Assembly: GCF_001434575.1 (NCBI RefSeq)
Contig: NZ_AZDA01000041.1
Span: forward strand, 1-50,462
Direction: 5' to 3'
Origin: Loigolactobacillus bifermentans DSM 20003
GTDB lineage: Bacteria > Bacillota > Bacilli > Lactobacillales > Lactobacillaceae
DNA length: 50,462 nt
Below the pieces are notes generated by a model, which worked only from the letters and a program-made list of their open reading frames with translations, was not told the origin of the DNA and searched no databases. Below, in pieces: positions 3,696-50,462 of the stretch; position 1 is the first letter of the stretch, and each line of letters starts with the position of its first letter. Position numbers and translations under genes: made by a program.

Positions 3696-3800
3696 GCTGT
3701 ACGAATGGGCAGTCAAGGACAAGACCAAAGTTGGATTGATTATTTTGCGCGAGATGATTACACTATTTGTAAATCAAACTCAGATTAAGAAGGTTTTTGA

Positions 3801-4565
3801 ATGATACTTGCACGAGAGAACTTACTCAATATTAAACAGATCCAGCGGGAATTAATGGCATTAGGCGATCGGCGCATGGCCAATAATGTGACCCAAATGG
3901 CAGATTATTATCAATTATGCCAGCTGGCTGTCAACGAAATTGGCACAAAACTTGATAATTTAGATGCGGATTATGCGATTCATTATGATCATAATCCCAT
4001 TCATCATATGGAAGAGCGAATGAAGGATCCTCGTTCCTTACAAGGTAAATTACGGCGCAAAGGCCTAGCGCCATCAATTACCAGTGTGTACAATCATATT
4101 TTTGATTTAGGGGGGATTCGGGTCGTCACCAACTACTTAAATGATGTTTATACGGTGGCCAATAATTTGATTGCGCAAAGTGATGTGGAATTGTTAAAAC
4201 GTAAGGATTATATTAAGCATCCCAAACCTAGTGGTTATCGTAGTCTACATTTGGTGGTGACGGTGCCGGTTTTTCAAGCTTCTGGCGTTAAAATTGCACC
4301 GGTGGAAGTTCAGATTCGGACGGTGGGTATGGATATGTGGGCCAGCTTGGAACACAAGCTGCGCTATAAAACCAGTGTTTCTACAGAACAAGTGGCGCAT
4401 TATGGCAAGCAACTTCATGACTATGCCGACGAATTAACCGATATTGAAGAAAATATGCAGGCGATCTTCTATCAACTGGACGGTAAAATGGCGTTACCGG
4501 AAACGGTGGATACCTTTGACGCTCCAGATGTTGATGAAGCTGATACAACCACTAAAGAGGCTTGA
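3801..4565 (+). CDS. Small alarmone synthetase (RelA/SpoT domain; RelP/YwaC-like)
   Basis: This protein makes (p)ppGpp from ATP and GTP/GDP without the hydrolase half of full-length Rel. The 254 residues carry the RelA_SpoT synthetase signature: HNPIHH, FDLGGIRVV, KDYIKHPKPSGYRSLHL, VEVQIRTVGMDMWASLEHKLRYK. The HNPI and PKPSGYRSLHL stretches resemble B. subtilis YwaC/RelP more than YjbM/RelQ; this subtype call rests on remembered sequences. The acidic C-terminal tail (about 230-254) is extra and looks disordered. The gene is transcribed alone, and the next terminator lies about 105 bp downstream. Confidence 0.88.
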   Translation: MILARENLLNIKQIQRELMALGDRRMANNVTQMADYYQLCQLAVNEIGTKLDNLDADYAIHYDHNPIHHMEERMKDPRSLQGKLRRKGLAPSITSVYNHIFDLGGIRVVTNYLNDVYTVANNLIAQSDVELLKRKDYIKHPKPSGYRSLHLVVTVPVFQASGVKIAPVEVQIRTVGMDMWASLEHKLRYKTSVSTEQVAHYGKQLHDYADELTDIEENMQAIFYQLDGKMALPETVDTFDAPDVDEADTTTKEA

Positions 4566-25526: not shown

Positions 25527-25795
25527 ACTTCATAAATTGGCGTTGAAGAGAAGAGTAGCACAGATGTCCGCCTTCAGAGAAAAGTCATTTGGTGAGAGGC
25601 TTTGGCAGACGAGTGTGTGAAGATGAGCTCTGAGCCGTGTGTAAGTTCACGCTTATACACCGTGGGCAAGCGTTATTTTGCCGGGTATCCTTTTTTAGAG
25701 CGGGTACCGTTGAGGCGTCATTAATGACGCGAAAATAGGGTGGTAACACGCAAACGCGTCCCTCAGTCCAAAGTTGGGCTGAGGGACTTTTTTTG
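25527..25795 (+). promoter_or_regulatory. T-box riboswitch (probable Met specifier) ahead of the symporter
   Basis: Typical T-box order: Stem I with AAGAGTA (specifier-loop 5' side, about 25551) and GAAGATGA (3' side, 25618-25625); a GGTGAGAGG distal loop; the T-box AGGGTGGTAACACG at 25737-25750; then a terminator GTCCCTCAG/CTGAGGGAC with seven T (25758-25794). The specifier reads ATG (Met) if one extra G is allowed before it, or GAT (Asp) by strict spacing after GAA. The tRNA-end pairing box is TGGT, which needs A73 (or G73 by wobble); tRNACys with U73 would not fit. Confidence 0.9.
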
Positions 25796-30739: not shown

Positions 30740-31054
30740 ATGGGAAAAGAAAAGCACGAACAAGCGGCTCAAATCATGTTTCAACAAATCGACATTGCCT
30801 ATGCAGATGCAGCGGTGAAACAGCGGCCGGCATTACGCGAGATTTTGTTGAAGTCAGCACAGGCGCTCCAAAAAGGTGAGAACTGTCAACTAGTGGCGAC
30901 GAAACTGACCAAGGCCATCACCCTGTATTATTGGGAACATCAAAAAGACTATCCGGCGGCACTCAATACGTTGTACCATCAGATCAAAGGCCAGGCAACG
31001 AAGTATGATGCAGTGGCCACATCAGCACTAATGATGCCGATTTGGTTCCATTAA
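30740..31054 (+). CDS. Bacteriocin-immunity-like protein (enterocin A immunity family, tentative)
   Basis: The 104-residue protein is helical and cytoplasmic. ALQKGENCQLVATKLTKAI followed by a later LYHQIKGQA resembles the EntA-immunity family (PF08951) four-helix bundle, which protects cells against class IIa bacteriocins. No double-glycine bacteriocin precursor was found beside it, so it would be an orphan immunity gene, which is common in lactobacilli. The assignment is by pattern only. A GGGGG stretch precedes the ATG. Confidence 0.5.
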   Translation: MGKEKHEQAAQIMFQQIDIAYADAAVKQRPALREILLKSAQALQKGENCQLVATKLTKAITLYYWEHQKDYPAALNTLYHQIKGQATKYDAVATSALMMPIWFH

Positions 31055-36864: not shown

Positions 36865-36892
36865 TTGACTTTATTTAAAATGAAAATATAAT
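36865..36892 (+). promoter_or_regulatory. Promoter of the metY T-box unit
   Basis: TTGACT (36865-36870), 16 bp, and a perfect TATAAT (36887-36892); the transcript should start near 36899. Confidence 0.85.
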
Positions 36893-36898
36893 TAGAGA

Positions 36899-37188
36899 CA
36901 ACTTAAAAAAATGAAATGACAATGAAAAGAAGAGTAATGACTTGTGATTATCCCAGAGAGCTTTCAACGGTGGAAGAAAGCATAATGGCAGGTTATGAAG
37001 ATGATCTTGGAGTCAGCAATTTGGTGCTTCGGTGCTGAATCGCCGTTTTGCAGTCGATATCCTGCACTTGTATAGTCACCATGATGTACAGGCAAAGGTG
37101 TTGATTGTGAAATCAAGACAAAAATGGGTGGTACCACGGAGAATCCGTCCCAGAACGCGCGAAAGCGATGTTCTGGGGCGGATTTTTT
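36899..37188 (+). promoter_or_regulatory. T-box riboswitch (probable Met specifier) ahead of metY
   Basis: Stem I has AAGA then AGAGTA (about 36927-36936) on the 5' side and GAAGATGA then TCTT on the 3' side (36997-37008). ATGAC/GTTAT pairing frames the specifier loop. ATG, one base before the TCTT stem, is the natural specifier for a methionine gene. The T-box GGGTGGTACCACGG is at about 37126-37139, and its TGGT pairs with A73, as in tRNAMet. The terminator AATCCGTCCCAGAAC with its complement (37142-37184) is followed by six T. Confidence 0.92.
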
Positions 37189-37217: not shown

Positions 37218-37307
37218 ATGACTGACTTAAGCTTTATTTTAAATCGGTCTGGTATGGCGGATCAAACGGCGTTGATTCATTTGCGCCTAACAGAATTCAA
37301 ACAATAA
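37218..37307 (+). CDS. 29-residue small ORF between T-box and metY
   Basis: The frame starts at ATG 37218 with a near-perfect AAAGGAGG 7 bp upstream and ends TAA 37307, 29 bp before metY. The peptide begins MTDLSFILNRSG and ends LIHLRLTEFKQ. His21-Leu22-Arg23 falls at the same position as His21-Leu22-Lys23 in the two 38-residue micro-ORFs downstream, but the overall similarity is weak. It may be a leader peptide coupling translation to metY. Confidence 0.5.
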   Translation: MTDLSFILNRSGMADQTALIHLRLTEFKQ

Positions 37308-37336: not shown

Positions 37337-38614
37337 ATGACAGCAGAAAACTTACATTTTGAAACTTTACAAGTAACCGCAGGCCAAACCGTTGACGAAA
37401 CAGGCGCACGTGCCGTACCAATTTACCAAACCACTTCTTACGTTTTTAAAGATGCGGCACAGGCCGCTGGGCGGTTTGCCTTAACCGATGCTGGTAATAT
37501 TTACACGCGCCTGACGAACCCGACTTCAGATGTTCTTGAAAAGCGGGTTGCTGCTTTAGAGCACGGAACGGCTGGTGTGGCATTGGCAACTGGTTCAGCT
37601 GCAATCACCGCTGCAATTTTAAATATTGCGGATGCTGGGGATGAAATTGTTTCAGCCAGTACCCTTTATGGTGGGACGTATGATCTTTTCAGTGTCACAT
37701 TGAAGAAGTTAGGGATTACCACACACTTTGTTGACCCTGATCAGCCTGAAAACTTTGAAGCAGCGATCAACGAACATACCAAAGCGTTGTATATTGAAAG
37801 TATTGGGAATCCTGGCATCAACTTGATTGACTTTGAAGCGGTTGCTGCAATTGCGCATCAACATGGCTTGCTTTTAATCGTCGACAATACGTTTGGGACC
37901 CCTTATCTAACCCAACCGTTAGATCACGGTGCTGACGTTGTGGTTCATTCGGCTACGAAGTTTATTGGCGGCCACGGCACCAGCATGGGCGGCGTGATCG
38001 TTGAAAATGGCAAGTTCGATTATACAGCGACAGACCGCTACCCTGGTTTTACCACCCCAGATGATACTTATAACGGCTTGGTTTGGAAAGACGTTGCGCC
38101 AGCAGCCTTTACGACCAAAGTACGGGCACAAACCTTACGGGATCTAGGCGCCACCATCAGTCCGTTTAACTCATTCTTGTTGATCCAAGGCTTAGAAAGT
38201 TTGTCCTTGCGGGTTGAACGGCACGTTGAAAATACCCGTAAAATTGTTGAATACTTAAGCAATCATCCCAAGGTGGCTTGGGTCAACTACCCTGAATTAC
38301 CAGACAGCCCTTATAAAGCGTTAGCTGATAAGTATTTCCCGAAAGGCGCTGGCTCGATCTTCACCTTAGGCTTAACTGGCGGTGAAAAAGCAGGGAAACA
38401 ATTAATTGAAAATCTCGAATTATTCTCACTGTTAGCGAATGTGGGGGATGCGCATTCTTTGATTATTCACCCTGCATCCACCACCCATGCCCAATTAAAC
38501 GAAGCGCAATTGAAGCAAACTGGGATCACGCCAGACTTGATTCGCTTATCCATTGGGATCGAAAATGTGGACGATTTAATCGCCGACTTAGAACAAGCAT
38601 TAGGTAAACTCTAA
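37337..38614 (+). CDS. metY: O-acetylhomoserine sulfhydrylase (Cys/Met metabolism PLP enzyme)
   Basis: The 425-residue cytoplasmic PLP enzyme makes homocysteine from O-acetylhomoserine and sulfide, and can make methionine directly with methanethiol. Family marks are [35 protein letters not shown]-like [22 protein letters not shown], and the PLP lysine Lys208 in [11 protein letters not shown]. The 425-430 residue length and the insert typical of MetY separate it from shorter cystathionine enzymes. TTGGAGG precedes the ATG. It is under T-box control and lies upstream of a thiohydantoin-type degradation cluster that could supply methanethiol. Confidence 0.93.
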
Positions 38615-38655
38615 CCAAAATCACTTTAATCAATGCAGAAAGGAGCGTGTGTCAC

Positions 38656-38772
38656 ATGTATACATTAAAAATTATGTTTGCGGATCAAATGCAATTTGTT
38701 GCCATGAACCACGCTCATTTAAAGGCTAATTTTATCGCCAAATTTGGCGAAAAGGACATGCCAGTCTGTTAA
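38656..38772 (+). CDS. 38-residue micro-ORF, paralogue 1
   Basis: The ATG at 38656 has AAAGGAG upstream and TAA ends at 38772. The peptide begins MYTLKIMFADQMQFVAMN and continues HAHLKANFIAKFGE. It has the same length as, and aligns without gaps to, the micro-ORF at 38943: Met1, Leu4-Lys5-Ile6, Gln13-Phe14, His19, His21-Leu-Lys-Ala-Asn-Phe-Ile-Ala28 and Phe30-Gly-Glu32 are shared. No family is known to me. The paired conservation in protein rather than DNA argues that it is a real gene. Confidence 0.65.
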   Translation: MYTLKIMFADQMQFVAMNHAHLKANFIAKFGEKDMPVC

Positions 38773-38774
38773 TT

Positions 38775-38909
38775 GCCCCTTGTGCGCTTGTAAATTAAAC
38801 TGAACGGCTACCGTCTTGCAATTGTGAAGATGGCGGTTTCGTTTGTGACCCGCTTTTTTCTAATTAAAAAGTGAGCAGTCTGATTTATAAGCAAGTAAGG
38901 GGCTTTTTT
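38775..38909 (+). ncRNA. Three-way-junction RNA with terminator-like end (candidate cis-regulator)
   Basis: GCCCCTT (38775-38781) pairs with AAGGGGC (38897-38903). After a 4x4 loop, GCTTGTAAATTA (38786-38797) pairs with TGATTTATAAGC (38881-38892, two G-T). Inside are hairpin P2 (TGAACG/CGTTTG, 38801-38845, with inner ACCG/CGGT and TCTT/AAGA) and hairpin P3 (GAC...GTC, 38847-38880, with TTTTT/AAAAA). Six T follow P1. This is a closed three-way junction ending like an intrinsic terminator, placed between two paralogous micro-ORFs. No known riboswitch class was recognised. Confidence 0.6.
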
Positions 38910-38942
38910 GACCCAAAAATAACGTAAAAAGGGGGCCCGGCC

Positions 38943-39059
38943 ATGCGTCGATTAAAAATTTGTTTAAAAACTGGTGATCAGTTCTTACCAGTACGTCATT
39001 GTCACTTAAAAGCTAATTTTATTGCCCGCTTTGGCGAAATCGGGCGGCTCACATTTTAA
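38943..39059 (+). CDS. 38-residue micro-ORF, paralogue 2
   Basis: The ATG at 38943 follows AAGGGGG and TAA ends at 39059. The peptide begins MRRLKICLKTGDQFLPVR and continues HCHLKANFIARFGE. About 18 of 38 positions are identical to the micro-ORF at 38656, concentrated in the HxHLKANFIA[KR]FGE core. The His-x-His and nearby Cys could bind metal, but this is speculation. It lies 44 bp before the hydantoinase gene, on the downstream side of the folded RNA. Confidence 0.65.
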   Translation: MRRLKICLKTGDQFLPVRHCHLKANFIARFGEIGRLTF

Positions 39060-39103
39060 TCGGAGTTGCAACAAGCAAACATGATTAAAATGGAGGGTTT
39101 AAG

Positions 39104-40489
39104 ATGACGCAAAAAAAGATTTTATACGGGCAAGTTGTGACGCCTTTACGCGTAACAGCGGCCTATCTGACAGTTGAAAACGGCAAGATCACTGGCATTA
39201 GCACTACCAAGCCAATATTAGATGCAACAACTGAATTTTTTGATTATGGTGCGCAATACATTTTTCCAGGGTTTATTGATGGCCATGTCCATTGTTTCAG
39301 TAATCCTGACGAAGGTTTTGCGGCAACAAGCGTTGGGGCTGCGGTTGGCGGCGTCACCACATTTGTTGATATGCCATATGATCGACCAAAGCCCATTAAC
39401 ACAGCCGCGCGGTTTAATGCCAAAAAGGCCCAGATCAAAGGCCAGACCATTGTGGATATTGCCTTATGGGGCACGATTCCGAAACAGGACGGGGTTAAAG
39501 AAATACCAGGTTTGATTGCGGCAGGGGCAGCGGCCTTTAAAATGTCGACGTTTGAAACCGACCCAGAACGTTTTCCCAAAATCAGTGATGTCGATATTTA
39601 TGACGCGTTAACGAAATTACGTAAAACAGGCATTGTGCCGGCATTTCATTCTGAAAATAATGAGATGATCGTGGATCTGATTGCCCGTTATCAACAAGCA
39701 GGCGCCACTTATCCACGGGCGCATATGGAAACCCGACCGATTATTGTGGAAACCACCGCCGTCCAAGAATTGTGCGAAATTGCGAAGTGGACGGGCAGTA
39801 AGCTGCATATTGTCCATGTTAGCGCGCCAGAAACGGTGGATCTGATCGATGCTTACCGGCAACAAGGTGTGGCGGTGACTTGTGAAACGTGTTATCAATA
39901 TTTAGTGCTCGATATCCATGATTTAGAAAAAATGGGACCACGGGCTAAAATGAATCCACCATTACGGGAACCGGAGACAGTCGCCGGTTTATGGCAGCGG
40001 CTGATTGCTGGCAAAATTGATTATGTGACCTCTGACCATGTGCCTTGGGCGGCTAGTGACAAGGCAAAAGGCCAAGCCAATATTTTTGAAGCACCGTCTG
40101 GTTTACCAGGAATCGAATTGGTTGCGCCTGTTTTATACGATGCCGGTGTGGCCCAAGGGCGGTTAAGTCCCGTGCAATTTAGCCAGCTCATGGCAACTCA
40201 TGTGGCCCAGCGGTTTAACTTTTCACAAAAAGGCAGTATTGAATTAGGTAAGGATGCTGATTTTGCCATTTTAGACCCACAGGCGCAGTTTACAATTACG
40301 GACGCCGGTTTACACACAAAAACCAACGCCATTACCCCCTTAGCAGGTCGTACTTTACAAGGTAAAGTAACTGCTACTTGGGTTCGCGGCCAACGCGTTT
40401 ACGCTGATGATCAAGTCCTGGCACCTTTTACTTATGGTGACTTTGTACCCGGTCAAGGCTTGAAGGCAGGTGCCTCGAATGAAGGTTAA
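39104..40489 (+). CDS. Cyclic amidohydrolase (hydantoinase/allantoinase-like)
   Basis: The 461-residue amidohydrolase-superfamily enzyme opens cyclic amides. The two-metal site is complete: His61 and His63 (DGHVH), carboxylated lysine Lys146 (AAFKMST), His182 (AFHSEN), His238 (HIVHVS) and Asp311 (TSDHVPW). CETCYQYLVLD and KMNPPLREPE resemble allantoinase. The Arg that usually follows HxH in allantoinase and dihydroorotase (HVHFR) is replaced (HVHCF), so the substrate may differ. Neighbours suggest hydantoin-5-propionate. GGAGG lies upstream. The gene overlaps the next one by 11 bp. Confidence 0.9.
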   Translation: MTQKKILYGQVVTPLRVTAAYLTVENGKITGISTTKPILDATTEFFDYGAQYIFPGFIDGHVHCFSNPDEGFAATSVGAAVGGVTTFVDMPYDRPKPINTAARFNAKKAQIKGQTIVDIALWGTIPKQDGVKEIPGLIAAGAAAFKMSTFETDPERFPKISDVDIYDALTKLRKTGIVPAFHSENNEMIVDLIARYQQAGATYPRAHMETRPIIVETTAVQELCEIAKWTGSKLHIVHVSAPETVDLIDAYRQQGVAVTCETCYQYLVLDIHDLEKMGPRAKMNPPLREPETVAGLWQRLIAGKIDYVTSDHVPWAASDKAKGQANIFEAPSGLPGIELVAPVLYDAGVAQGRLSPVQFSQLMATHVAQRFNFSQKGSIELGKDADFAILDPQAQFTITDAGLHTKTNAITPLAGRTLQGKVTATWVRGQRVYADDQVLAPFTYGDFVPGQGLKAGASNEG

Positions 40490-41648
40490 TGCACAACGGT
40501 TTTTAGATAGTTTCAAAGCACTGCAGGCGCTTTTTCCAGAAGATGGTGGCGACGAAGGTTATAATCGCCCTGCTTTTTCGGCCAAGGAACAGCAGGCGCA
40601 TGCCTGGGTCAGCACGCAGCTGCAACAATCAGGTGTGGTGGTCACCCACGATCCGATTCGCAACACGTTTGGGCGCTACGGGCAGCACGGTGGGCCGGCC
40701 ATTGGCTTTGGGTCGCACTTGGATACCGTCAATCATGGTGGCCTCTATGACGGTGCTTACGGGACTTTAGCGGCGCTTGAAGTGATTCGTTCCGCCGCTG
40801 AACAAGCGCTACCGTTACAGCGTGATCTACTTTTTACGAATTTTGTCGGGGAAGAGGTCAATCCACTAGGTGGTACTTTTGGCAGTCGTGCGCTAACGGG
40901 ACAGGTGCCAGTTACTGATAATGATTATTTCACAGCCGCACAAATTCAAGCAGCGCAGTTAGCACCACAAACCTATCGGAATTTTTTAGAACTGCACATT
41001 GAACAATCAAGCGCGCTTGAACAGCAGCAAGTTACCATTGGGATTCCCACCGCAATTGCAGGCATTGTGCGCTACGAGTATCAATTTAGTGGCGCCGCGT
41101 TACATGCCGGCGCCACACCAATGGCCTATCGCGATGATGCCCTGGTAAAAGCCAGTCGATTCATTCAAGCCGTATCGCAGCAAGCAAGGGCCAGTTCAGA
41201 ACAATTAGTGGCAACGGTTGGGCAATTAAGTGTTCAGCCGAACCAGCCAACCGTTATTCCAGGCCAAGTCACATTGATCTTAGAAGTGAGAGCCGTTGAC
41301 ATGCAGGTGGCCTATCAATTTCAACACCAGCTGGATCAATGGCTAAAAGCAGCACAAATCGACTATCACGTTCGAAAAATCGTTGATAAAGTCAGTGCAC
41401 AGTTAGATCCGCAAGTGCAACAAGTGATTCAAGCGGCCGCTGAGCAGCGCCACGATCGTTACACCAAACTATTTTCGGGGGCCAATCATGATGTGAATGC
41501 CATGTCGAAAATCGCAGCAGCGGGTTTGATTTTTGTGCCAAGCCATTTAGGTATCAGTCACAACCCACAGGAATTCACGACGGCGGCTGATTTAGTGGCA
41601 GGCTTACAGGTTTTAGCAGACAGCGTTTATGCTTTGGCAACCGAATAA
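40479..41648 (+). CDS. M20 N-carbamoyl-amino-acid hydrolase (HyuC/AllC-like)
   Basis: The 389-residue metallo-amidase removes the carbamoyl group from N-carbamoyl amino acids. It has GSHLDTV with His80, Asp91 (GGLYDGAYG), Glu125/126, His173 (LELHIEQ) and the C-terminal SGANHDVNAM...FVPSHLGISHNPQE typical of carbamoylases and allantoate amidohydrolases. It overlaps the hydantoinase by 11 bp, the classic two-step hydantoin pathway arrangement. The ATG at 40479 is chosen with AAGGCAGG 8 bp upstream over an in-frame GTG at 40470. The likely substrate in context is N-carbamoyl-glutamate. Confidence 0.9.
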   Translation: MKVNAQRFLDSFKALQALFPEDGGDEGYNRPAFSAKEQQAHAWVSTQLQQSGVVVTHDPIRNTFGRYGQHGGPAIGFGSHLDTVNHGGLYDGAYGTLAALEVIRSAAEQALPLQRDLLFTNFVGEEVNPLGGTFGSRALTGQVPVTDNDYFTAAQIQAAQLAPQTYRNFLELHIEQSSALEQQQVTIGIPTAIAGIVRYEYQFSGAALHAGATPMAYRDDALVKASRFIQAVSQQARASSEQLVATVGQLSVQPNQPTVIPGQVTLILEVRAVDMQVAYQFQHQLDQWLKAAQIDYHVRKIVDKVSAQLDPQVQQVIQAAAEQRHDRYTKLFSGANHDVNAMSKIAAAGLIFVPSHLGISHNPQEFTTAADLVAGLQVLADSVYALATE

Positions 41649-41668
41649 AAGAAAGGAATCAATTGATA

Positions 41669-42766
41669 ATGCGAATTTTAAATCATGATGATGTTTTAGC
41701 AGCTTTAACAGGAGGTTCCATTTACGCTTGTGGTGGCGGTGGTTTTTACGAACATGGCCTGGCCATGGGACATGCCGCCATCACCATTAACAAGGTGAAA
41801 TTAGTCTCACTGGATGAATTAAACGACGATGATATTGTCATTACTGCAGCGGCAATCGGCGCACCTGGTGGCACCACTGACTGGGAAATGACCGGCCGGG
41901 ATTATATTAAAGCGGCGCAGTTGTTGATCGACCATTATGATGGCAAAATCGTTGGCTTTGTTGCTGGACAAAACGGAAAATCATCTTCTACGAATGGTTG
42001 GTTACCGGCCGCTGCGCTTGATTTAGTGGTCGTTGATGCGTTAGGTGACATTCGGGCCCATCCATCTGGCAAGTTTGGTAACTTTGGTTTAACGTCAGAT
42101 GAACATTATGAAACGATCGAAGCGGCATCTGGTGGTAAACGTGAAACCGGCAGTCACCTTGAATTAGTGATCAAAGGGAAGCCTGAAAAAACCTCAGAGG
42201 TCTTGCGAAAGGCGTCAGATTTATCGGGTGGTTTCTTTGCATCAGCCCGAAATCCGTTAAGCGTGAAGTTCCTTAAGAAAAATGCGGTTGTTGGCGGTTA
42301 TACCCTGGCAATTGAGCTAGGGGAAGCCGTTTTAAAGGCACAACCGGATGGCCCAGAAGCAGTTTTAGCGGCGATTCTCAAGCAAACTGGTGGCGAAATT
42401 GTCGGCAAAGGGAAGGTCACTGAAAATACCGTGGCTTATTCTGAAGAAGGCACTTATGATGTGGGTTATATCAACGTTGAAACCAAAAAAGGCCATGACC
42501 TAAAGGCCTATGCGGCAAATGAGTTTATGGCCTTGGAACGTGATGGCGAACGTGTGGGGAACTATCCAGATGTGATCACTATTTTTGATGCAAAGACGAT
42601 GCAGCCTTTAACCACTAGTGAGATTTCAGTTGGGCAAAAGGTGATCGTTTTCCGAATCGATCGCTCAAAATTTCCATTAAGTGCCGGGGTCTTTGAACGT
42701 GCCAATTACCCAGAAATCGAGGCAGCATTAGGCATCGATATTTACAAGTACGTATTTTCAAAATAA
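41669..42766 (+). CDS. DUF917 family protein (S-methyl-thiohydantoin desulfurase family)
   Basis: The 365-residue protein matches DUF917/COG3535: an early Gly-rich motif (SIYACGGGGFYEHG), DIVITAAAIGAPG, and AGQNGKSSSTNGWLPAAALDL. From memory, Pfam now names this family S-methyl thiohydantoin desulfurase (S-Me-THD), an enzyme that releases methanethiol from an S-methyl-thiohydantoin and yields a hydantoin. That fits a position beside a hydantoinase and carbamoylase. The ATG at 41669 (AAAGGA 11 bp upstream) is taken; an in-frame TTG at 41663 is possible. The assignment to the family is firm, the reaction here inferred. Confidence 0.85.
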   Translation: MRILNHDDVLAALTGGSIYACGGGGFYEHGLAMGHAAITINKVKLVSLDELNDDDIVITAAAIGAPGGTTDWEMTGRDYIKAAQLLIDHYDGKIVGFVAGQNGKSSSTNGWLPAAALDLVVVDALGDIRAHPSGKFGNFGLTSDEHYETIEAASGGKRETGSHLELVIKGKPEKTSEVLRKASDLSGGFFASARNPLSVKFLKKNAVVGGYTLAIELGEAVLKAQPDGPEAVLAAILKQTGGEIVGKGKVTENTVAYSEEGTYDVGYINVETKKGHDLKAYAANEFMALERDGERVGNYPDVITIFDAKTMQPLTTSEISVGQKVIVFRIDRSKFPLSAGVFERANYPEIEAALGIDIYKYVFSK

Positions 42767-42781
42767 AGGTTGGGGAACTGA

Positions 42782-43591
42782 ATGAAATTTAAAAAAGTAA
42801 TGTTCGTCGCGGCGGTTGCGCTTTTCGGTTTTAGTGCGCTGGCAACAACACAAACGCAGGCGGCCAGTAAAGATACCTCATGGACTTCAGTTAAGCAGTC
42901 CAAAACGTTGACAGTTGGGTTATCAGGGGATTATGCACCTTGGCAAACAACATCAACCAGTGGCAAGTTAGGGGGCTATGATGCGGCGGTTGCCCGGCTT
43001 GTTGCGAAAGACCTAGGCGTCAAAGTGAAGTTTGCGCCAGGTCAATTTGCGGGGTTGATCCCAGCGCTGAATAACGGTAAAACGGACATTTTGTTTGCCG
43101 CATTGCAAGCGACACCGCAACGGAAAAAGACGTTATTGTTATCCAAGCCTTATGCGGCCGATGGCACGGTGGCTGTTGTGAAAAAATCAAATCACAGTAT
43201 TAAAGCGTTTAAAGATATTAAAGGGAAAACCGTTGGTGCGGGCACAGGTTCTTCTTATTTAACGGATGCGCAAAAAATTAAAGGGACAAAAGCCATTAAA
43301 GAATATAAAGCACCAAACGATTCATTTAAGGATTTGAAATTAGGTCGGATCGATGCCGTTTCAATCGGGATCGTGGCTGCAAAGCATTATATTAAAACAG
43401 CGCCTGATGGCAAAGAGTTCAAAATCGTCGGGAAGCCTTATCACACTTATGATATTGACCTGGCCTTTAAAAAAGGTAACAAAGCCTTAGCCACAAAGGT
43501 CAATCAAGTGATTGCCAAAGAAACAAAAAATGGAACGTTGCAAAAATTACAAAAGAAATATTTAGGCGTTACGGCAGCCAGTCTGCGCTAG
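42782..43591 (+). CDS. Polar amino acid ABC transporter, substrate-binding protein
   Basis: The 269-residue extracellular binding protein is of the SBP_bac_3 family (TLTVGLSGDYAPWQTTSTSGKLGGYDAAVARLVAKDLGV, then GKTDILFAAL, then GKTVGAGTGSSYL). It captures the ligand for the permease and ATPase that follow. A Sec signal peptide ends around residue 28 (ATTQTQAA) without the lipobox cysteine normal for Gram-positive binding proteins, so attachment to the membrane is unclear. TTGGGGA lies upstream. The ligand is unknown; a histidine- or glutamate-like zwitterion is likely. Confidence 0.9.
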   Translation: MKFKKVMFVAAVALFGFSALATTQTQAASKDTSWTSVKQSKTLTVGLSGDYAPWQTTSTSGKLGGYDAAVARLVAKDLGVKVKFAPGQFAGLIPALNNGKTDILFAALQATPQRKKTLLLSKPYAADGTVAVVKKSNHSIKAFKDIKGKTVGAGTGSSYLTDAQKIKGTKAIKEYKAPNDSFKDLKLGRIDAVSIGIVAAKHYIKTAPDGKEFKIVGKPYHTYDIDLAFKKGNKALATKVNQVIAKETKNGTLQKLQKKYLGVTAASLR

Positions 43592-43609
43592 AGAAATGTG
43601 GTGGCTTTG

Positions 43610-44269
43610 ATGAATTGGCAAATTGTTGAGAAAAATTTACCCACGTTGTTAAATGGGATGGGATTGACCTTATTCATTTCGTTGTTGGCACTGGTCATTG
43701 CAACGGTATTTGGCTTTTTAATTGCGTTGATGCGAACGTCGAACCAACCGCTCCTAAGAAGAATTGCCGCAACCTATAACTGGATCGTACGTGGCTTGCC
43801 AGTGATGATCTTACTGTTTTTACTGTACTATTCAGCGCCATTTGGGCTGAAGTTATCGGCTTTTTCAGCCGGTTTGCTGGGGTTAACGATCAATGGCAGT
43901 GCCTTTATTGCTGAAATTTTCCGTTCAGGTTTTCGGGCAGTCGATCAAGGGCAAATCGAGGCAGGCAAGGCCTTAGGGTATCGTTCTGGACAAATCATGT
44001 GGTTCATCAAGCTGCCAGCGATTATCAAAATTATTTCACCGACTTATGTTTCAAATGCCATTGCATTGTTGAAAGAGTCCGCCCAAGTTTCTGTGATCAC
44101 CGTGCCGGATCTGATGTTAAAAGCATCTAACCTTTATGCAACGACTTATCGGACTTGGGAAACATTGGGCGTCGCCGCCGTTTTATATTTGATACTGTGC
44201 AGTCTCTTTATGATTGCGCAGTGGTTATTAGAAAAGAAATACAACACAATGGGAATCACAGTTGGGTGA
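43610..44269 (+). CDS. Polar amino acid ABC transporter, permease
   Basis: The 219-residue permease is of the HisMQ/GlnP type with about five helices. LLNGMGLTLFISLLAL is the usual start. The EAA loop that contacts the ATPase is EAGKALGYRSGQIMWFIKLP. A single permease is present, so it probably works as a homodimer. An in-frame GTG at 43598 is an alternative start; the ATG at 43610 has GGTGG 5 bp upstream. It is operon-linked with the binding protein and ATPase. Confidence 0.9.
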   Translation: MNWQIVEKNLPTLLNGMGLTLFISLLALVIATVFGFLIALMRTSNQPLLRRIAATYNWIVRGLPVMILLFLLYYSAPFGLKLSAFSAGLLGLTINGSAFIAEIFRSGFRAVDQGQIEAGKALGYRSGQIMWFIKLPAIIKIISPTYVSNAIALLKESAQVSVITVPDLMLKASNLYATTYRTWETLGVAAVLYLILCSLFMIAQWLLEKKYNTMGITVG

Positions 44270-44273
44270 TCGT

Positions 44274-45056
44274 ATGACAGAAAAAATATCGTTACAACAT
44301 TTATCAAAGACTTATGGCAAACGAGAAATTTTGAAAGACATTAACGTCACCGTTAACGACGGTGAGTTAGTGACCTTGATCGGGCCTTCTGGTAGTGGCA
44401 AGTCAACCTTGATTCGTTGTCTCAATTTACTAGAAGCGCCAACCGCAGGCACGCTGACGTTTAATCGTCAAAAAATTGATTACAAACTCAATCGTTTTGG
44501 CCAATTAACGCGTAAAAGTGAGGCCCAAGCCGCACAATATCGCACCAAAGTCGGCATGGTTTTTCAGCAGTTTAATTTGTTTCCTAATCGCTCGGTGTTA
44601 CAAAATTTGATCGATGGGCCACGGCGGATTTTAAAAGTTGACCGCGGTACTTTGGAACAACAAGCGGTGCATTATCTCACCTTAGTGGGGCTGCGTGATT
44701 ATCAAGCACAATACCCGGCGCAATTATCTGGTGGTCAAAAACAACGGGTGGCGATTGCCCGCGCCTTAATGATGTCGCCCGAAGTCCTGTTATTTGATGA
44801 ACCCACCTCTGCTTTAGATCCAGAAATGGTCAATGATGTTTTAAGGGTGATGCTGCGGCTTAAACAGGCAGGGATGACGATGGTTGTGGTGACCCATGAA
44901 ATGGCTTTTACAGAACAGGCCTCAGATCGCGTTTTGTTTTTGGAACAAGGGCAGATCCAGTTTGCTGGCACGCCACAAGCGTTGCAACAAGAACCAGCAA
45001 CCAGTCGGGTCAAGCAATTTGTCAGTACGTTGGACCATCATTTAGCAGTGTCTTAA
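44274..45056 (+). CDS. Polar amino acid ABC transporter, ATPase
   Basis: The 260-residue importer ATPase has Walker A GPSGSGKST (37-45), signature LSGGQKQ (151-157), Walker B VLLFDE (171-176) and H-loop VVTHE. Typical of GlnQ/HisP proteins (FQQFNLFP). It is 4 bp downstream of the permease stop with GGGTGA as ribosome-binding site; an in-frame TTG at 44262 overlaps the permease and is less likely. A weak promoter-like pair (TTTCGT-17-TACAAT, 45074-45102) lies after it, ahead of the second transporter. Confidence 0.93.
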   Translation: MTEKISLQHLSKTYGKREILKDINVTVNDGELVTLIGPSGSGKSTLIRCLNLLEAPTAGTLTFNRQKIDYKLNRFGQLTRKSEAQAAQYRTKVGMVFQQFNLFPNRSVLQNLIDGPRRILKVDRGTLEQQAVHYLTLVGLRDYQAQYPAQLSGGQKQRVAIARALMMSPEVLLFDEPTSALDPEMVNDVLRVMLRLKQAGMTMVVVTHEMAFTEQASDRVLFLEQGQIQFAGTPQALQQEPATSRVKQFVSTLDHHLAVS

Positions 45057-45151
45057 ATTAAAAAGCTAAGCAGTTTCGTTCACGTAAACAGTGCGCTACA
45101 ATGAATACCTTAGTTGTCTTTTAAAAAAGATTGAAGGAAAGGCGTTTTTGC

Positions 45152-45802
45152 ATGAAATTCTTAAAACAAGTCGGCGACTATATTCAAATGAATCGTGCTG
45201 ATTTTGATAAAAATCTGATCATTCATTTGCAATTAAGTTTGATTGCCTTAGTGATCGCCATTGTGATTGCGGTTCCGATTGGCGTTTATGCAGCAAAGCA
45301 TGCGAAAATCGGTGGGCGCTTGATCGGGCTGTTTAATGCCATTCGGGTGATCCCATCATTGGCGATTTTGGTGCTCGTGTTGCCACTCATGGGCATGGGA
45401 TTTTACCCAGCGTTACTTGCCTTAACAATTTTGGCGATTCCGCCGATTTTGATCAATACGTACTCGGGTTTACAGCAGATCAATCCAGAGACACTGGAAG
45501 CGGCAGCTGGCATGGGCATGGGCAATGCGTATCGCTTGCGTAAGATTGAGTTGCCTTTGGCGGCTTTGCCTGTGATCGCCGGCGTGCGCCTAGCCGCAAT
45601 TGAAGTCATTAGTTCCGCCACGTTAGCGGCTTTTATCGGCGGTGGCGGTTTAGGCACCTACGTGATGATGGGCATGAGTATGTATGATCCGAGCATTATG
45701 CTGGTGGGTGCATTACCCGTCACCGGTATTGCCTTGCTCTCTGAATTATTTTTCTCAGTGATTGAATTTTACTTAAAAAAGAAATATGGAATAGGGGAAT
45801 AA
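45152..45802 (+). CDS. Betaine/choline-type (OpuC family) ABC transporter, permease 1
   Basis: This 216-residue permease resembles OpuCB/OpuBB. LQLSLIALVIAIVIAVPIGVYA is the first helix pair, and ETLEAAAGMGMGNAYRLRKIELPLA is the EAA loop. GGGGLGTYVMMGM is conserved in the quaternary-amine importer family. The ATG at 45152 (GGAAAGG 9 bp upstream) is preferred over a TTG at 45131. It begins a second importer operon segment, about 95 bp after the amino acid ATPase. Confidence 0.9.
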   Translation: MKFLKQVGDYIQMNRADFDKNLIIHLQLSLIALVIAIVIAVPIGVYAAKHAKIGGRLIGLFNAIRVIPSLAILVLVLPLMGMGFYPALLALTILAIPPILINTYSGLQQINPETLEAAAGMGMGNAYRLRKIELPLAALPVIAGVRLAAIEVISSATLAAFIGGGGLGTYVMMGMSMYDPSIMLVGALPVTGIALLSELFFSVIEFYLKKKYGIGE

Positions 45803-45805
45803 TTG

Positions 45806-46711
45806 ATGAATAAAAAGTTTAAGCACTACCTTACCTCAGCCTTAGTCGCCACATTAGCGGCAGGGTCACTGTTAGCCACTGCAAGCACATCAGCTTCTGC
45901 TGCAACCGTTAAAGTTGGTTCGAAAAACTTTACAGAAAACTTGATCATTGGCAAGATCTACCAAGATATTTTAGAACAAAACGGAATTAAAACTAAAGGT
46001 AAATTGAATTTATCAGGGACTTTCGTGGCGCAAAATGCCTTGAAAAAAGGCTCGATTGATGTTTATCCAGAATATACAGGGACTGGCTATGTGGACGTGT
46101 TGAAACACGATGCCAGCCACAACGATAAAAAGGTCTACAAAACATTGAATAAAAGCTATGCGAAATGGCATTTAACCTGGCTAACCCCTTCAACAGCCAA
46201 TGATAGCCAAGCTTTGGTGATCACCAAGAAGGCTGCCGATAAATACCATATTAAAACGTTCTCTGATTTAGCGAAAAAGGCCAGCCAATTGCGGTTTGCC
46301 ACAACGGCTGAGTTCCAAGGTCGTAAAGATGGAATTCAAGGGTTGAAAAAGACGTATGGTGGTTTTAATTTTAAGGCCACATCAACGGTTGATAATGGTG
46401 TCCGTTACCAAGCTTTACTTGATAAAAAAGCGGATGTCACCGTTGGGTTTACCACGGATGGGATGTTAGCCAATAAAAAGTTAGTCTTGTTAAAGGACAA
46501 CAAGCACTTCTATCCAAACTACTACGTGGCCCCTGTGATTCGCCAAGCAACGATCAAAGCCAATCCAAAAGTGAAGACCTTATTAAATAAAGTCAGCGCT
46601 AAATTAACCACCAAAGACTTACAAAAGCTAAACGCCAAAGTGGACGTGCATCATGAAAAGTACCAAACAGTGGCGAAGGAATACGTAAAATCTGCTAAAT
46701 TAGGGGATTAA
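45806..46711 (+). CDS. Betaine/choline-type ABC transporter, substrate-binding protein
   Basis: The 301-residue OpuAC/OsmF-type binding protein starts its mature part TVKVGSKNFTENLIIGKIYQ and contains IDVYPEYTGTGYVDVL, both hallmarks of the glycine betaine/choline/ergothioneine family. The Sec signal peptide ends in STSASA at about residue 33, again without a lipobox cysteine. A quaternary ammonium ligand is expected. The ergothioneine importer EgtU belongs to this family, but its ligand residues were not checked here. It lies between two permease genes, as in opuC/opuB-type operons. Confidence 0.9.
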   Translation: MNKKFKHYLTSALVATLAAGSLLATASTSASAATVKVGSKNFTENLIIGKIYQDILEQNGIKTKGKLNLSGTFVAQNALKKGSIDVYPEYTGTGYVDVLKHDASHNDKKVYKTLNKSYAKWHLTWLTPSTANDSQALVITKKAADKYHIKTFSDLAKKASQLRFATTAEFQGRKDGIQGLKKTYGGFNFKATSTVDNGVRYQALLDKKADVTVGFTTDGMLANKKLVLLKDNKHFYPNYYVAPVIRQATIKANPKVKTLLNKVSAKLTTKDLQKLNAKVDVHHEKYQTVAKEYVKSAKLGD

Positions 46712-46745
46712 AACGTCCGTAGCGTAGAAAGGAAGCAAACTTTAG

Positions 46746-47720
46746 ATGACGAATACTCCGATGATTCAGGTCGAAAATGTCTCCAAACGTTTTCCCAAAA
46801 CCCAGGCTGATGCTGTACAACCCACTTCGTTTACGGTGGCAGCAGGGGAATTTATTACCATTTTAGGGACCTCTGGTTCAGGGAAAACCACTTTGATGAA
46901 AATGATCAATCGACTGTATGAACCAACCACTGGTACGATTTATATCAATGGGCAAGACACGCGACAAATGGATGTCAACGTTTTACGTCGGCGTATTGGT
47001 TATGTGATCCAACAACACGGTTTGTTTGAGCATTGGACAGTGGCCCAAAATATTGCCACGGTTTGCCAGATCTTAAAATGGGATAAAGCTAAAATTGCCC
47101 AGCGGGTGGATGAAACCTTACGCTTGGTCCAACTAGATCCAGACCAATATCGTAATCGGCATCCACATCAATTGTCAGGTGGGGAACAGCAGCGCGTGGG
47201 CATCGCCCGAGCGTTAGCGGCGGATCCTGATATTTTATTGATGGATGAACCGTTTGGCGCAGTGGATGCTGTCAATCGGGCCACATTACAAGATGAGATC
47301 CAACAAATTCAGCGGCAAACCCATAAAACAATCATTTTTGTGACCCATGATATTGATGAAGCATTGAAATTAGGCGATCGCACGATGCTGTTTCGGAGTG
47401 GCGTCATTCAGCAGTTTGCCACGCAAGATGAGCTGTTTTTACAGCCGGCCAATGATTTTGTAGCCGATTTTTTGAAAGTTCACGATCAAGTGACCCAGTG
47501 GCGGTACATTCACGCAGGGTCGTTGGTGCAAACTTGGCAGGCAGCAGCTCATACGCCGACCATCGATCCGGTTGCAGCGGATCAGCCGTTAGCGGTTGTG
47601 GTGGAACACTTTTTAAAGGCGCCGGCCACCTCTGTGACGGTCGTTGATGTACCGCACCAACGTTGTGGTGAGCTTACCTTGGCCGATCTGGCACGATTAG
47701 CGGAGGCACCGTCATGTTAA
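46746..47720 (+). CDS. Betaine/choline-type ABC transporter, ATPase
   Basis: The 324-residue ATPase is of the OpuCA/ProV type: Walker A GTSGSGKTT (41-49), YVIQQHGLFEHWTV, LSGGEQQRVGIARALA, LLMDEPFGAVDAVNR. A C-terminal part of about 80 residues lacks clear tandem CBS motifs, so osmotic gating as in OpuA may be absent. It overlaps the start of the second permease by 7 bp, showing translational coupling. The context argues for uptake of a betaine as nutrient rather than osmoprotectant. Confidence 0.92.
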   Translation: MTNTPMIQVENVSKRFPKTQADAVQPTSFTVAAGEFITILGTSGSGKTTLMKMINRLYEPTTGTIYINGQDTRQMDVNVLRRRIGYVIQQHGLFEHWTVAQNIATVCQILKWDKAKIAQRVDETLRLVQLDPDQYRNRHPHQLSGGEQQRVGIARALAADPDILLMDEPFGAVDAVNRATLQDEIQQIQRQTHKTIIFVTHDIDEALKLGDRTMLFRSGVIQQFATQDELFLQPANDFVADFLKVHDQVTQWRYIHAGSLVQTWQAAAHTPTIDPVAADQPLAVVVEHFLKAPATSVTVVDVPHQRCGELTLADLARLAEAPSC

Positions 47721-48346
47721 CTTATTTAAGCCATAACTGGGGCATGATTTTAAATTTAACGGGCCAACACATTCTAATTACCGGCTTGACCATCGCAATT
47801 GCAACCGTCATTGCCTGGCCACTGGGTTACTTTTTTGCCAGTCATCCGTTGCTAAATCGCTTTATCATGCCGATCCTCAGTCTAATTTATACGATTCCCA
47901 GCCTGGCCTTTTTTGTCCTACTGATTCCTTGGTTTGGTTTAGGCCTGGTCCCAGCGCTGATTGCCTTGGTGGCTTATACGCTGTTTGTACTGGTTCGGAA
48001 TACGATCGTCGGTTACCAACAAGTGGCACCAAGTATTGTTGAAACGGCACGGTCATTAGGCTATAGCCGTTGGGAAGTCTTTTTGAAATTTAAAACACTG
48101 TACGCCTTACCAACGATGTTAGCCGGGCTGCGCATTGCCACGACCTCCACGATTGGGATTGCGACGATTGCCAGCTATATCAATGCTGGTGGGTTAGGTA
48201 CCATGTTGTTTAATGGCCTTAATCAAAATAACTATACCGAAGTTGTGGTGGGGTCGCTCGTGATTTCCTTATTTGCAATTTTAGTGAACTTTGCGTTAGC
48301 AGCACTGCAAAATCGTGCTTTAGCGTATATTAACGGAGAACTTTAA
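47714..48346 (+). CDS. Betaine/choline-type ABC transporter, permease 2
   Basis: This 210-residue permease is of the OpuCD/OpuBD type (GQHILITGLTIAIATVIAWPLG, VETARSLGYSRWEVFLKFK as EAA loop, YINAGGLGTMLFNGL). It forms a heterodimer with the permease at 45152. It overlaps the ATPase gene by 7 bp. Thirty-seven bases separate it from the hydratase gene, so all are probably on one transcript. Confidence 0.9.
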   Translation: MLTYLSHNWGMILNLTGQHILITGLTIAIATVIAWPLGYFFASHPLLNRFIMPILSLIYTIPSLAFFVLLIPWFGLGLVPALIALVAYTLFVLVRNTIVGYQQVAPSIVETARSLGYSRWEVFLKFKTLYALPTMLAGLRIATTSTIGIATIASYINAGGLGTMLFNGLNQNNYTEVVVGSLVISLFAILVNFALAALQNRALAYINGEL

Positions 48347-48383
48347 CTCAAATTAGACTTAATACAAGAAAGCAGGTTTAAAA

Positions 48384-50033
48384 ATGACAATTAAAGCACA
48401 ACGTGGTCAAACCCTGCGCGCTAAAGGATGGCGCCAAGAAGCCATTTTACGTTTATTAGAAAATAATTTAGAAAATGCTGAAGATCAAGCAAATCTGGTC
48501 GTTTACGGGGCGTTAGGAAAGGCCGCCCGAGATTGGCCTGCTTATCAAGGTATCGTCCATGCACTTAAAAATTTAGAAGAAGATGAAACGCTGATCGTTC
48601 AGTCAGGCAAGCCCATTGGTGTGCTAAAAACACATCCGGATGCGCCAATCGTGCTGTTGGCCAACTCGAATCTGGTGGGCCATTGGTCCAATGCAGCTGA
48701 TTGGTACAAACTGTACGATCAAGGGTTAACGGCATGGGGTGGCTTAACAGCAGGTGATTGGCAATATATCGGGTCGCAAGGGGTGGTCCAAGGGACTTAT
48801 GAGATTTTTAAAATTATTGCGCAAAAGCATTTTCAAGGCAGCTTAGCAGGCCGCTTTATTTTAACAGCCGGATTAGGTGGGATGGGCGGTTCACAGCCGC
48901 TGGCAGGGTACATGGCCGATGCGGCGATCTTAGTGGTCGAAGTGAATGAAGCGCACGCCGATAAGCGGATTGCATCTGGTTATTTACAGTATAAGGCGCA
49001 TTCATTACCAGAAGCCTTAAAATTGATCAACGCTGCGCGAGCTAAAAAAGAGGCGATTTCCGTCGGCTTGATCGGGAATGCCGCCGAAATTTATCAGGCG
49101 TTACTTGACCAAAATATCACCCCTGATATTGTCTCTGATCAAACCGCGGCGCAGGATCTATTATACGGCTATATTCCAGAGGGGTATTCATTGGCTCAGG
49201 CAGAGGCCGAACGAACCAGTGACCCAGAGAAGTTAGCGGCGGCAGCAGGTCAATCAATTGCCCATGAAGTGCGTTCTGAATTAGAATTTCAACGGCGGGG
49301 CAGCATTGTGTTCGATAATGGGAATAATATTCGCACACAGGCGAAAGAGTTTGGCGTAACCGATGCTTTTGACATTCCAATTTTTACAGAAGCCTTTTTA
49401 CGTGATTTATTTGTGAAAGCCATTGGCCCATTTCGTTGGATCGCGTTATCCGGGGCAGAAGCCGATATTCAGTTGATCGATGATTATTTATTGACTGAGT
49501 TTGCGGACAATGAGTTGATCGTTGATTGGATCAAAAAGGCCAATCAGTATGTGCCGTTCCAAGGTTTGCCGGCTCGCATTGGTTGGTTAGGTCACGGTGA
49601 ACGCACCAAGCTCGCCTTAGCGGTGAATGATTTAGTGGCTCGCGGCAAGTTACAAGCGCCAGTTGCGTTTACCCGTGATCATCTGGATGCAGGCGCCATG
49701 GCGCATCCTAATATTATGACTGAAAACTTGAAAGACGGCAGTGACGCGATTGCGGATTGGCCGTTGATCAATGCCATGACCATGGCATCTTCTAAAGCCG
49801 ACCTGGTGGCCATTCATTCTGGTGGCGGTGGTTATGCCGGCTATATGCAAAGCGCTGGGGTAACGGTTGTCGCAGATGGCACACCGGCAGCAGCTGAACG
49901 CTTACGGCTAGCCTTTAACAACGACACGTCCTTAGGCTTGTTGCGCTATGCCGACGCTGGCTATGAGGCCTCATTGACAGAAGTGAAGGAGCGAGGTGTG
50001 CGGCGCATTGACACACAACAATTCAAGCAATGA
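48384..50033 (+). CDS. Urocanate hydratase-family protein (HutU-like, altered active site)
   Basis: The 549-residue NAD-dependent hydratase of the urocanase family aligns with HutU over its length (VVYGALGKAARDW, QSGKPIGVLKTHPDAP, TAGLGGMGGSQPLA, QGTYE, FTRDHLDAG, DGSDAIADWPLINAM). The PROSITE urocanase motif FQGLPARICW reads FQGLPARIGW: Gly400 replaces the signature cysteine (Cys410 in the Pseudomonas enzyme). The downstream HHGGG/GYSxHAG segment is also changed (HSGGGGYAGYMQSAG). A substrate other than urocanate, such as an S-methyl-thiourocanate, is therefore plausible. The lyase gene overlaps its end. Confidence 0.88.
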   Translation: MTIKAQRGQTLRAKGWRQEAILRLLENNLENAEDQANLVVYGALGKAARDWPAYQGIVHALKNLEEDETLIVQSGKPIGVLKTHPDAPIVLLANSNLVGHWSNAADWYKLYDQGLTAWGGLTAGDWQYIGSQGVVQGTYEIFKIIAQKHFQGSLAGRFILTAGLGGMGGSQPLAGYMADAAILVVEVNEAHADKRIASGYLQYKAHSLPEALKLINAARAKKEAISVGLIGNAAEIYQALLDQNITPDIVSDQTAAQDLLYGYIPEGYSLAQAEAERTSDPEKLAAAAGQSIAHEVRSELEFQRRGSIVFDNGNNIRTQAKEFGVTDAFDIPIFTEAFLRDLFVKAIGPFRWIALSGAEADIQLIDDYLLTEFADNELIVDWIKKANQYVPFQGLPARIGWLGHGERTKLALAVNDLVARGKLQAPVAFTRDHLDAGAMAHPNIMTENLKDGSDAIADWPLINAMTMASSKADLVAIHSGGGGYAGYMQSAGVTVVADGTPAAAERLRLAFNNDTSLGLLRYADAGYEASLTEVKERGVRRIDTQQFKQ

Positions 50034-50410
50034 GCTAACGGGCTTTAACCTCACGATTGCCCTGGCACAAAAAATAATTACCGATCAGCAAAAAATCAAG
50101 CTTGCGCCAGCTGCCTATCACCGATTAGTCGCTAGCCGCCAGGTGGTGTTACAAACGACGCAACCGGTTTATGGCATGAACACAGGGGTAGGCCAAAATA
50201 AAGATCTTGCGATCGCCAATCAAAGCATGGTCAAATTTAACTTAAATTTGGTGAAATCGCACCAAATCAGCATTGGTCGTGCCAGTACGTGGCGGACGAG
50301 TAAATTGGTGATGCTGATTCGAATCAGCCAGCTGTTACAAGGGCGGACAGGCCTTAATCCCGAGATCGTGCAATTACTGGTGACGTTATTTAATGCAGAT
50401 GTGATTCCCC
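49996..50410 (+). pseudogene. Histidine/aromatic ammonia-lyase family gene, 5' part only
   Basis: The frame reads NELTGFNLTIALAQKIITDQ, then QPVYGMNTGVGQ (catalytic Tyr of the family in YGxNTGxG), LVKSHQISIG (conserved Ser-His) and LFNADVIPRI. In HutH the next residues should be a short link to GSVGASGDLAPL, containing the MIO Ala-Ser-Gly. Here the frame instead enters the 55-bp end repeat (IHTRFNIGIPHNF), so the gene is apparently interrupted there. The start is GTG 49996 (AAGGAG 4 bp upstream) or TTG 50008, overlapping the hydratase. HutH, or a related trimethylamine lyase such as ergothionase, is possible. Confidence 0.75.
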
Positions 50411-50462
50411 GAATTATTCATACGAGGTTTAATATCGGCATACCGCACAATTTTGGACCAAT
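50408..50462. repeat. 55-bp end repeat, inverted copy of the left end
   Basis: The exact reverse complement of bases 1-55. It begins where homology of the lyase gene to its family stops, which supports an insertion-sequence end placed inside that gene. The element family is not identified. Confidence 0.75.

Follow-up and report, generated by a model that had tools for sequence, protein, structure and literature searches.

The 50,462-bp window analyzed here, contig C117 (NZ_AZDA01000041.1) of the draft genome of Loigolactobacillus bifermentans DSM 20003 (Lactobacillaceae; 3.13 Mb, 147 contigs), carries a locus that appears to import ergothioneine or a close relative and to strip its sulfur for methionine synthesis. 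The probability of this proposal is estimated at about two in three. Ergothioneine is a dietary antioxidant found in mushrooms. The genes, here called the ert block, extend from 36.9 kb to the contig end, all on the + strand, based on open reading frames (ORFs) and matches to Pfam, Rfam and NCBIfam. Their order is a T-box leader, metY, two micro-ORFs, ErtD, an ErtE-like gene, a desulfurase, an amino acid type importer (42782–45056), an OpuC-like importer (45131–48346), a hydratase, and the start of a lyase (Table 1). An earlier sequence-only reading of this DNA had listed this contiguous block with its T-box control element, micro-ORFs and two importers. All of these are recovered at the same positions, and hidden Markov model searches confirm the PF00221, urocanase and S-Me-THD families in the window. 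Its claim of a catabolic locus of the ergothioneine type with a link to methionine synthesis is supported by the sequence.

In the proposed route, an ergothionase-type lyase would convert ergothioneine to thiourocanate and trimethylamine, thiourocanate hydratase would convert thiourocanate to a thiohydantoin, and the DUF917 desulfurase would split the thiohydantoin into sulfide and hydantoin-5-propionate. The chemistry of these steps is general background, and sulfide is the usual substrate of MetY. MetY would combine sulfide with O-acetylhomoserine to give homocysteine, and MetE, encoded elsewhere in the genome (1011.5 bits; cut-off 541), would give methionine. Where present, ErtD and the ErtE-like enzyme could convert the remaining hydantoin to glutamate as an optional tail. 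A T-box apparently specific for methionine, lying ahead of metY or the ert genes, would turn on the unit at methionine shortage. The proposal is built on gene content, family scores, the T-box and gene order in three loci; each reaction, transport specificity, co-transcription and regulation are predicted from these.

Related Loci and the Sulfur Core

The desulfurase cut-off is passed in three of 301 Lactobacillaceae genomes (20 match at E 0.001), and the hydratase cut-off in three of 397 (14 match at E 1e-50). The same three genomes, L. bifermentans, G127 and G081, pass both. A contig scan with the desulfurase gives two further loci: L026 in Paucilactobacillus suebicus DSM 5007 and L027 in a metagenome-assembled genome (MAG) of Lactobacillus sp. 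L026 and L027 agree in position with G127 and G081, respectively, L026 also over a 170-base stretch.

The order in L026 is two T-boxes, metY, a micro-ORF, desulfurase, OpuC-like importer, hydratase and lyase. In L027, it is a T-box, a micro-ORF, ErtD, ErtE, desulfurase, amino acid type importer, OpuC-like importer, hydratase and lyase. Both loci are read over fetched stretches; ErtD, ErtE or metY could lie elsewhere in those genomes. The fetched P. suebicus stretch has the desulfurizing core and metY but neither the ErtD and ErtE genes nor an amino acid type importer. Sulfur looks like the selected product of the locus, mainly because P. suebicus keeps the sulfur core and metY without the glutamate branch. 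If so, a locus of this type would release hydantoin-5-propionate. The amino acid type importer is present where ErtD and ErtE are present and missing where they are missing, a pattern that suggests, across three loci, a role for it in the hydantoin or carbamoyl-glutamate branch.

Substrate of the Pathway

The NCBIfam models of the plain ergothioneine pathway (NF058529, NF058530, NF058538, NF058539 and NF058540) were kept apart from those of the S-methyl pathway (NF058532 for the desulfurase and NF058531 for the hydratase). On the plain model NF058529 (cut-off 440), the desulfurases score 543.5 (window), 553.6 (L026) and 540.1 bits (L027). On NF058532 (cut-off 450), the scores are 287.3 for the window and 288.7 and 290.7 for the relatives. 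The hydratases reach 968.6 (window), 1004.3 (L026) and 978 (L027) on NF058530 (cut-off 930), and 745.1 (window), 745.7 and 735.8 (relatives) on NF058531 (cut-off 880). In all three loci, both enzymes pass the plain models and fail the S-methyl models, so plain ergothioneine is the most likely substrate, with sulfur leaving as sulfide. The earlier assignment of the urocanase-family hydratase to the thiourocanate type agrees with its NF058530 score. Its closest match in the Protein Data Bank (PDB) is 7ned (786 bits; the runner-up has 597), deposited as a urocanate hydratase, which we take to be a thiourocanate hydratase.

The sequence-only reading had proposed S-methyl-ergothioneine as the substrate and methanethiol as the sulfur product, fixed straight to methionine by MetY. 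The Pfam name of the desulfurase family, S-Me-THD, is in line with this, and the S-methyl models do match both proteins, but at every locus the scores stay under the S-methyl cut-offs and over the plain ones. The S-methyl pathway is thus rejected on model scores, both for substrate and for product, and is considered very unlikely. Canonical histidine utilization by HutH and HutU is hardly credible. The window hydratase also exceeds the older hutU model TIGR01228 (Table 1) and the lyase belongs to the histidine ammonia-lyase (HAL) family, but the lyase lacks the Ala-Ser-Gly motif and the L027 copy is below the hutH cut-off (285.2 of 539.15). Histidine use has no place for a desulfurase or ErtD. 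For HutI, the draft L. bifermentans genome gives nine weak matches, all below the cut-off 298.15; the best reaches 28.5 bits. The absence of HutI noted earlier for the window thus extends to the draft genome. Histidine utilization is rejected on the absent HAL motif, the missed hutH cut-off and the missing hutI.

Interrupted Lyase Gene

The PF00221 match is split in the L. bifermentans genome, with positions 1–126 at the end of C117 and 116–465 at the start of contig C1. Copies of the C117 end lie at 17 sites across the genome, of which 8 begin at the first base of a contig; for the start of C1 there are 16 such sites, 9 beginning at the first base (the queries are counted in both cases). The lyase gene is thus interrupted by a multicopy element, probably an insertion sequence. 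The same repeat end is seen at both ends of the window (1–55 and 50408–50462) in opposite orientation, and the genome is rich in this element. The interruption bears out an earlier suspicion of a broken lyase, and among syntenic Lactobacillaceae loci, L027 has an intact copy. Because the gene is interrupted, ergothioneine itself is probably no longer degraded in L. bifermentans unless another enzyme stands in for the lyase. The P. suebicus lyase gene is broken in two places, by an in-frame stop close to the N-terminus and by a change of frame close to the C-terminus.

The closest PDB match of the intact L027 lyase is ergothionase 6s7j (E 9.4e-71), followed by a HAL (6e-48). Where HAL has the Ala-Ser-Gly tripeptide of its cofactor, the C1 piece (L025), L026 and L027 have GEAD, and 6s7j has GEGD. 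These observations are consistent with the earlier naming of the lyase as ergothionase. Based on comparison of L025 1–1172, L026 12336–13832 and L027 17092–18633, the lyase is the most divergent gene among the three loci: its C part is 58–61% identical, versus 82–85% for the hydratase. Separately, a Rhizobium gene annotated as hutH (L133, 7303–9810) has Ala-Ala-Asp at the Ala-Ser-Gly site and lies beside a glycine betaine type binding protein gene; it may not encode a histidine ammonia-lyase.

Link to Methionine

The T-box of the window matches RF00230 just above the gathering score (93.2 versus 93). At this score, no T-box is seen at the ert locus of L026 or L027, and L026 has another one downstream. 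Read from the alignment, the specifier context GAAG-AUG-A is shared by the window T-box, both L026 leaders and a second window T-box. The L027 context, GA-AUG-A, is shifted by one base and is less certain. The AUG specifier makes the specificity apparently that of methionine. The specifier codon alone is no proof, because in Staphylococcus aureus an altered specifier left binding unchanged, as far as the excerpt of that study goes (PMC3771891). The two L026 T-boxes lie in tandem at 3691–4354, 5′ of the P. suebicus metY, both with AUG contexts. The second window T-box (25534–25766, 103.5 bits) lies ahead of a sodium:dicarboxylate symporter family gene (25868–27265). This symporter may be methionine-related because the T-box ahead of it has the same GAAG-AUG-A context.

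Between metY and the first ert gene, neither the window nor L026 shows a promoter-like or terminator-like site on the + strand in a consensus scan. In the scanned window region, 9 promoter-like sites are found versus a mean of 4.3 in shuffled sequences. A 29-codon ORF (37218–37307) is located between the T-box and metY.

L. bifermentans has a second metY, 92% identical to the ert-linked copy. A MetA-like gene precedes it (314.8 bits, below the cut-off 460.5). In a MetY tree of 17 rows, the ert-linked copy pairs with this other copy (97/97), and groups with P. suebicus MetY in 0 of 200 bootstrap trees. Either metY and the ert genes were joined on two occasions, or they were joined once and gene conversion has since obscured this. 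In G123 and G191 (L125 and L127), which are relatives of the genus, a T-box and a second metY are followed by other genes. The T-box and metY module therefore occurs in several settings. A flavoprotein-like ORF lies 3′ of the second metY in both L125 and L127; the one tested, from G123, has no NCBIfam match at 1e-40.

OpuC-like Importer

The OpuC-like binding protein matches EgtU at E ~1e-43, and engineered choline-family sensors better, at 1e-57. Key EgtU positions include Gly244, the aromatic cage residue Tyr341, E375, R379 and D381, according to the excerpted part of PMC9732360. Residues were assigned to the window protein by spacing. The equivalents of E375, R379 and D381 are kept, as they are in a Rhizobium homologue, which also retains the cage tyrosine. 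In all three ert-linked copies (window 45803–46711, L026 and L027), a glutamine takes the place of the cage tyrosine found in quaternary-amine binding proteins. Because the equivalents of Gly244 and Tyr341 differ in all three loci, the protein cannot be named EgtU. Thus, of the earlier claim of an ergothioneine importer, the OpuC-like family stands and the EgtU identity does not.

Micro-ORFs

There are four copies of the micro-ORF (38–45 residues), two in the window and one each in L026 and L027. The peptides share 12 invariant columns, including LKI, H-x-HLKAN and FG. Across the four copies, each of the five HLKAN codons varies only synonymously, a pattern in favor of a translated peptide. 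When 397 Lactobacillaceae genomes are searched with a profile made from the four copies, the three ert genomes and no others match at E 2e-20 or better; their scores are high by construction, since the model was built from the same four sequences. Five more of the 397 genomes match at 7e-4 to 8e-3, about chance level. A peptide family tied to ert loci is a new detail, as is an importer that departs from EgtU at two residues.

Evidence Against the Proposal and Alternative Explanations

Several observations weigh against a sulfur-scavenging role. The T-boxes of the relatives are all below the gathering score 93 (74.3 and 69.8 in L026, and 91.4 in L027). The promoter and terminator scan misses real sites, since the window T-box's own terminator is not listed, and a strong promoter-like site (11/12) after the L027 T-box could bypass it. 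No metY is seen in the fetched L027 locus, nor MetY in the ~21 kb read of three proteobacterial loci (L134, L098 and L097). The L027 ErtD scores 649.2, just below the NF058539 cut-off 650. ErtE falls below the NF058540 cut-off 520 in both loci having it (310.3 in the window and 302.1 in L027), and the window protein exceeds only the general hydantoinase/carbamoylase model TIGR01879 (268.2 versus 204). Of the glutamate-releasing pair proposed earlier, the window hydantoinase exceeds the ErtD cut-off (682.5 versus 650). The lyase is broken in two of the three loci (L. bifermentans and L026) and intact only in L027, all read from draft assemblies. In the OpuC-like binding protein, two EgtU residue tests failed, with Phe43 at Gly244 and Gln136 at Tyr341 (by spacing), both invariant in the three loci.

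The aim of the locus could instead be carbon and nitrogen, in the form of glutamate from ergothioneine, with metY as a chance neighbor from a mobile T-box/metY module. ErtD, the ErtE-like enzyme and the second importer occur in two of three loci, L027 lacks metY, other genes follow the T-box and second metY in G123 and G191, and proteobacterial loci have the glutamate branch with no MetY found. On the other hand, P. suebicus retains the T-box, metY and the sulfur core without this branch at its locus, and L027 too has a T-box ahead of its ert genes, so a glutamate aim is rather improbable. A decaying locus without present function in L. bifermentans and P. suebicus deserves more attention, though it is still unlikely. 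It would explain the repeat in one lyase and the stop and frame change in the other, but the remaining ert genes are open in every locus having them. In addition, non-synonymous differences are fewer than half of synonymous ones in 25 of 25 comparisons, lyase pieces included; synonymous sites are near saturation, so no dN/dS ratio is claimed, and the lyase stretches were picked away from the breaks, which makes the result compatible with recent loss.

It can also be speculated, as a rather long shot, that these lactobacilli are shifting from ergothioneine to a breakdown product. They would live by sulfur cross-feeding on thiourocanate from neighboring microbes, switched on at methionine shortage and with a small peptide of their own. 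This idea comes from the lyase being broken in two of three lineages while the importer, hydratase, desulfurase and metY are open; in addition, the binding protein of the importer has lost a cation-cage tyrosine and might therefore transport thiourocanate. Under the preferred proposal of sulfur acquisition for methionine, methionine-responsive desulfurization and homocysteine synthesis would make ergothioneine a sulfur source for lactic acid bacteria.

Wider Distribution

In a search of 398 genomes across the phylum, 23 match the desulfurase model at E 1e-60 or better, and L. bifermentans alone passes the cut-off. Among the 22 other genomes, 20 were examined at E 1e-10 (G414 and G581 were left out), over at most 19.5 kb each, some ended by contig ends. 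None of the 20 contains a relative of the hydratase or the lyase. One has MetY ~7 kb from the desulfurase relative, one has an ErtE relative, and one has two ABC ATPase matches. These desulfurase relatives look like other DUF917 proteins, because the pathway partners are nearly absent around them. A wider spread of the pathway in the phylum is rejected on the single genome over the desulfurase cut-off and the lack of hydratase and lyase partners in these 20 stretches.

A plasmid search with 12.8 kb of the window gives no near match; 43 plasmid records encode a desulfurase relative, each less than 60% identical. In viral contigs, six stretches matched a pattern and none encodes a hydratase relative. 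Elsewhere in the window, an enterocin A immunity family gene (PF08951) is located at 30740–31054.

Table 1. Features of the ert block in the window (bits are given with the cut-off of the model).
Feature	Position	Strand	Evidence
Promoter-like site TTGACT, 16 nt, TATAAT; 5′ of T-box	36865..36892	+	Consensus scan 11/12
T-box leader, specifier context GAAG-AUG-A, read as Met	36913..37155	+	Rfam RF00230, 93.2 bits (gathering 93)
metY, O-acetylhomoserine sulfhydrylase family, 425 aa	37337..38614	+	PF01053; TIGR01326 633.9 bits, cut-off 495.1
Micro-ORF 1, 38 aa, H-x-HLKAN...FG peptide	38656..38772	+	Conserved in three loci
Micro-ORF 2, 38 aa, paralogue of micro-ORF 1	38943..39059	+	Conservation
ErtD, putative hydantoin-5-propionate amidohydrolase, 461 aa	39104..40489	+	NF058539 682.5 bits, cut-off 650
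ErtE-like N-carbamoyl amino acid hydrolase, 392 aa	40470..41648	+	NF058540 310.3 < 520; TIGR01879 268.2 > 204
Putative thiohydantoin desulfurase, DUF917/S-Me-THD family, 367 aa	41663..42766	+	NF058529 543.5 > 440; NF058532 287.3 < 450
Amino acid type substrate-binding protein (SBP_bac_3)	42782..43591	+	PF00497; in L027, not at P. suebicus locus
Amino acid type ABC permease	43598..44269	+	PF00528
Amino acid type ABC ATPase	44262..45056	+	PF00005
OpuC-like permease A	45131..45802	+	PF00528; conserved in L026 and L027
OpuC-like substrate-binding protein	45803..46711	+	PF04069
OpuC-like ATPase	46746..47720	+	PF00005; TIGR01186 296.1 < 326.6
OpuC-like permease B	47714..48346	+	PF00528
Putative thiourocanate hydratase, 549 aa	48384..50033	+	NF058530 968.6 > 930; NF058531 745.1 < 880; TIGR01228 694.4 > 375
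Ergothionase-like lyase, N-terminal piece (rest on contig C1)	49996..50407	+	PF00221 positions 1–126; frame open to contig end
Multicopy repeat end, probably insertion sequence, interrupting lyase	50408..50462	.	Matches 17 places in own genome

Comparison with Known Systems

A five-step bacterial ergothioneine catabolism has reportedly been described by the Seebeck group. Judged by the NCBIfam models, the window set resembles it in having the lyase, thiourocanate hydratase, thiohydantoin desulfurase, ErtD and an ErtE-like enzyme. It differs in the Lactobacillaceae host, the T-box, metY (in two of three loci), the two importers and the micro-ORF, and in the lack of the glutamate branch at the P. 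suebicus locus. Three proteobacterial loci of the ert type were compared. Burkholderia arboris (L134) has, like the window, the desulfurase (46%), the hydratase (63%), ErtD and ErtE, and its lyase shares the GSIGEAD motif. Paracoccus aminophilus (L098) shares the desulfurase, hydratase, ErtD and ErtE. Unlike the window, no lyase relative is seen in the stretches of L098 and Microvirga ossetica (L097), and no hydratase in that of L097.

Published accounts of microbial ergothioneine breakdown, in the parts available, stress trimethylamine, nitrogen, cross-feeding and sulfide release. Among the open-licence matches listed, judged by title and the start of the abstract, no paper deals with the breakdown of ergothioneine in Lactobacillaceae or with a connection between it and methionine synthesis, and none of the open-licence papers searched has both P. 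suebicus and ergothioneine. The novelty of this link is provisional. In the gut, ergothioneine is broken down via a thiourocanate desulfhydrase (Feng et al. 2025, as cited in PMC13405746). Sulfide likewise comes from thiourocanate there; the enzyme is differently named.

The OpuC-like binding protein belongs to the same substrate-binding family as EgtU and keeps the equivalents of E375, R379 and D381. Compared with the excerpt on EgtU (PMC9732360), the window importer differs in being encoded by four separate genes and in having Phe for Gly244 and Gln for Tyr341. T-boxes with AUG specifiers precede methionine synthesis and transport genes in Lactobacillales and are known in lactobacilli, according to the excerpts of PMC6004538 and PMC2494555. 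In contrast to the methionine T-boxes of those excerpts, the unit in the window appears to continue into ergothioneine catabolism genes.

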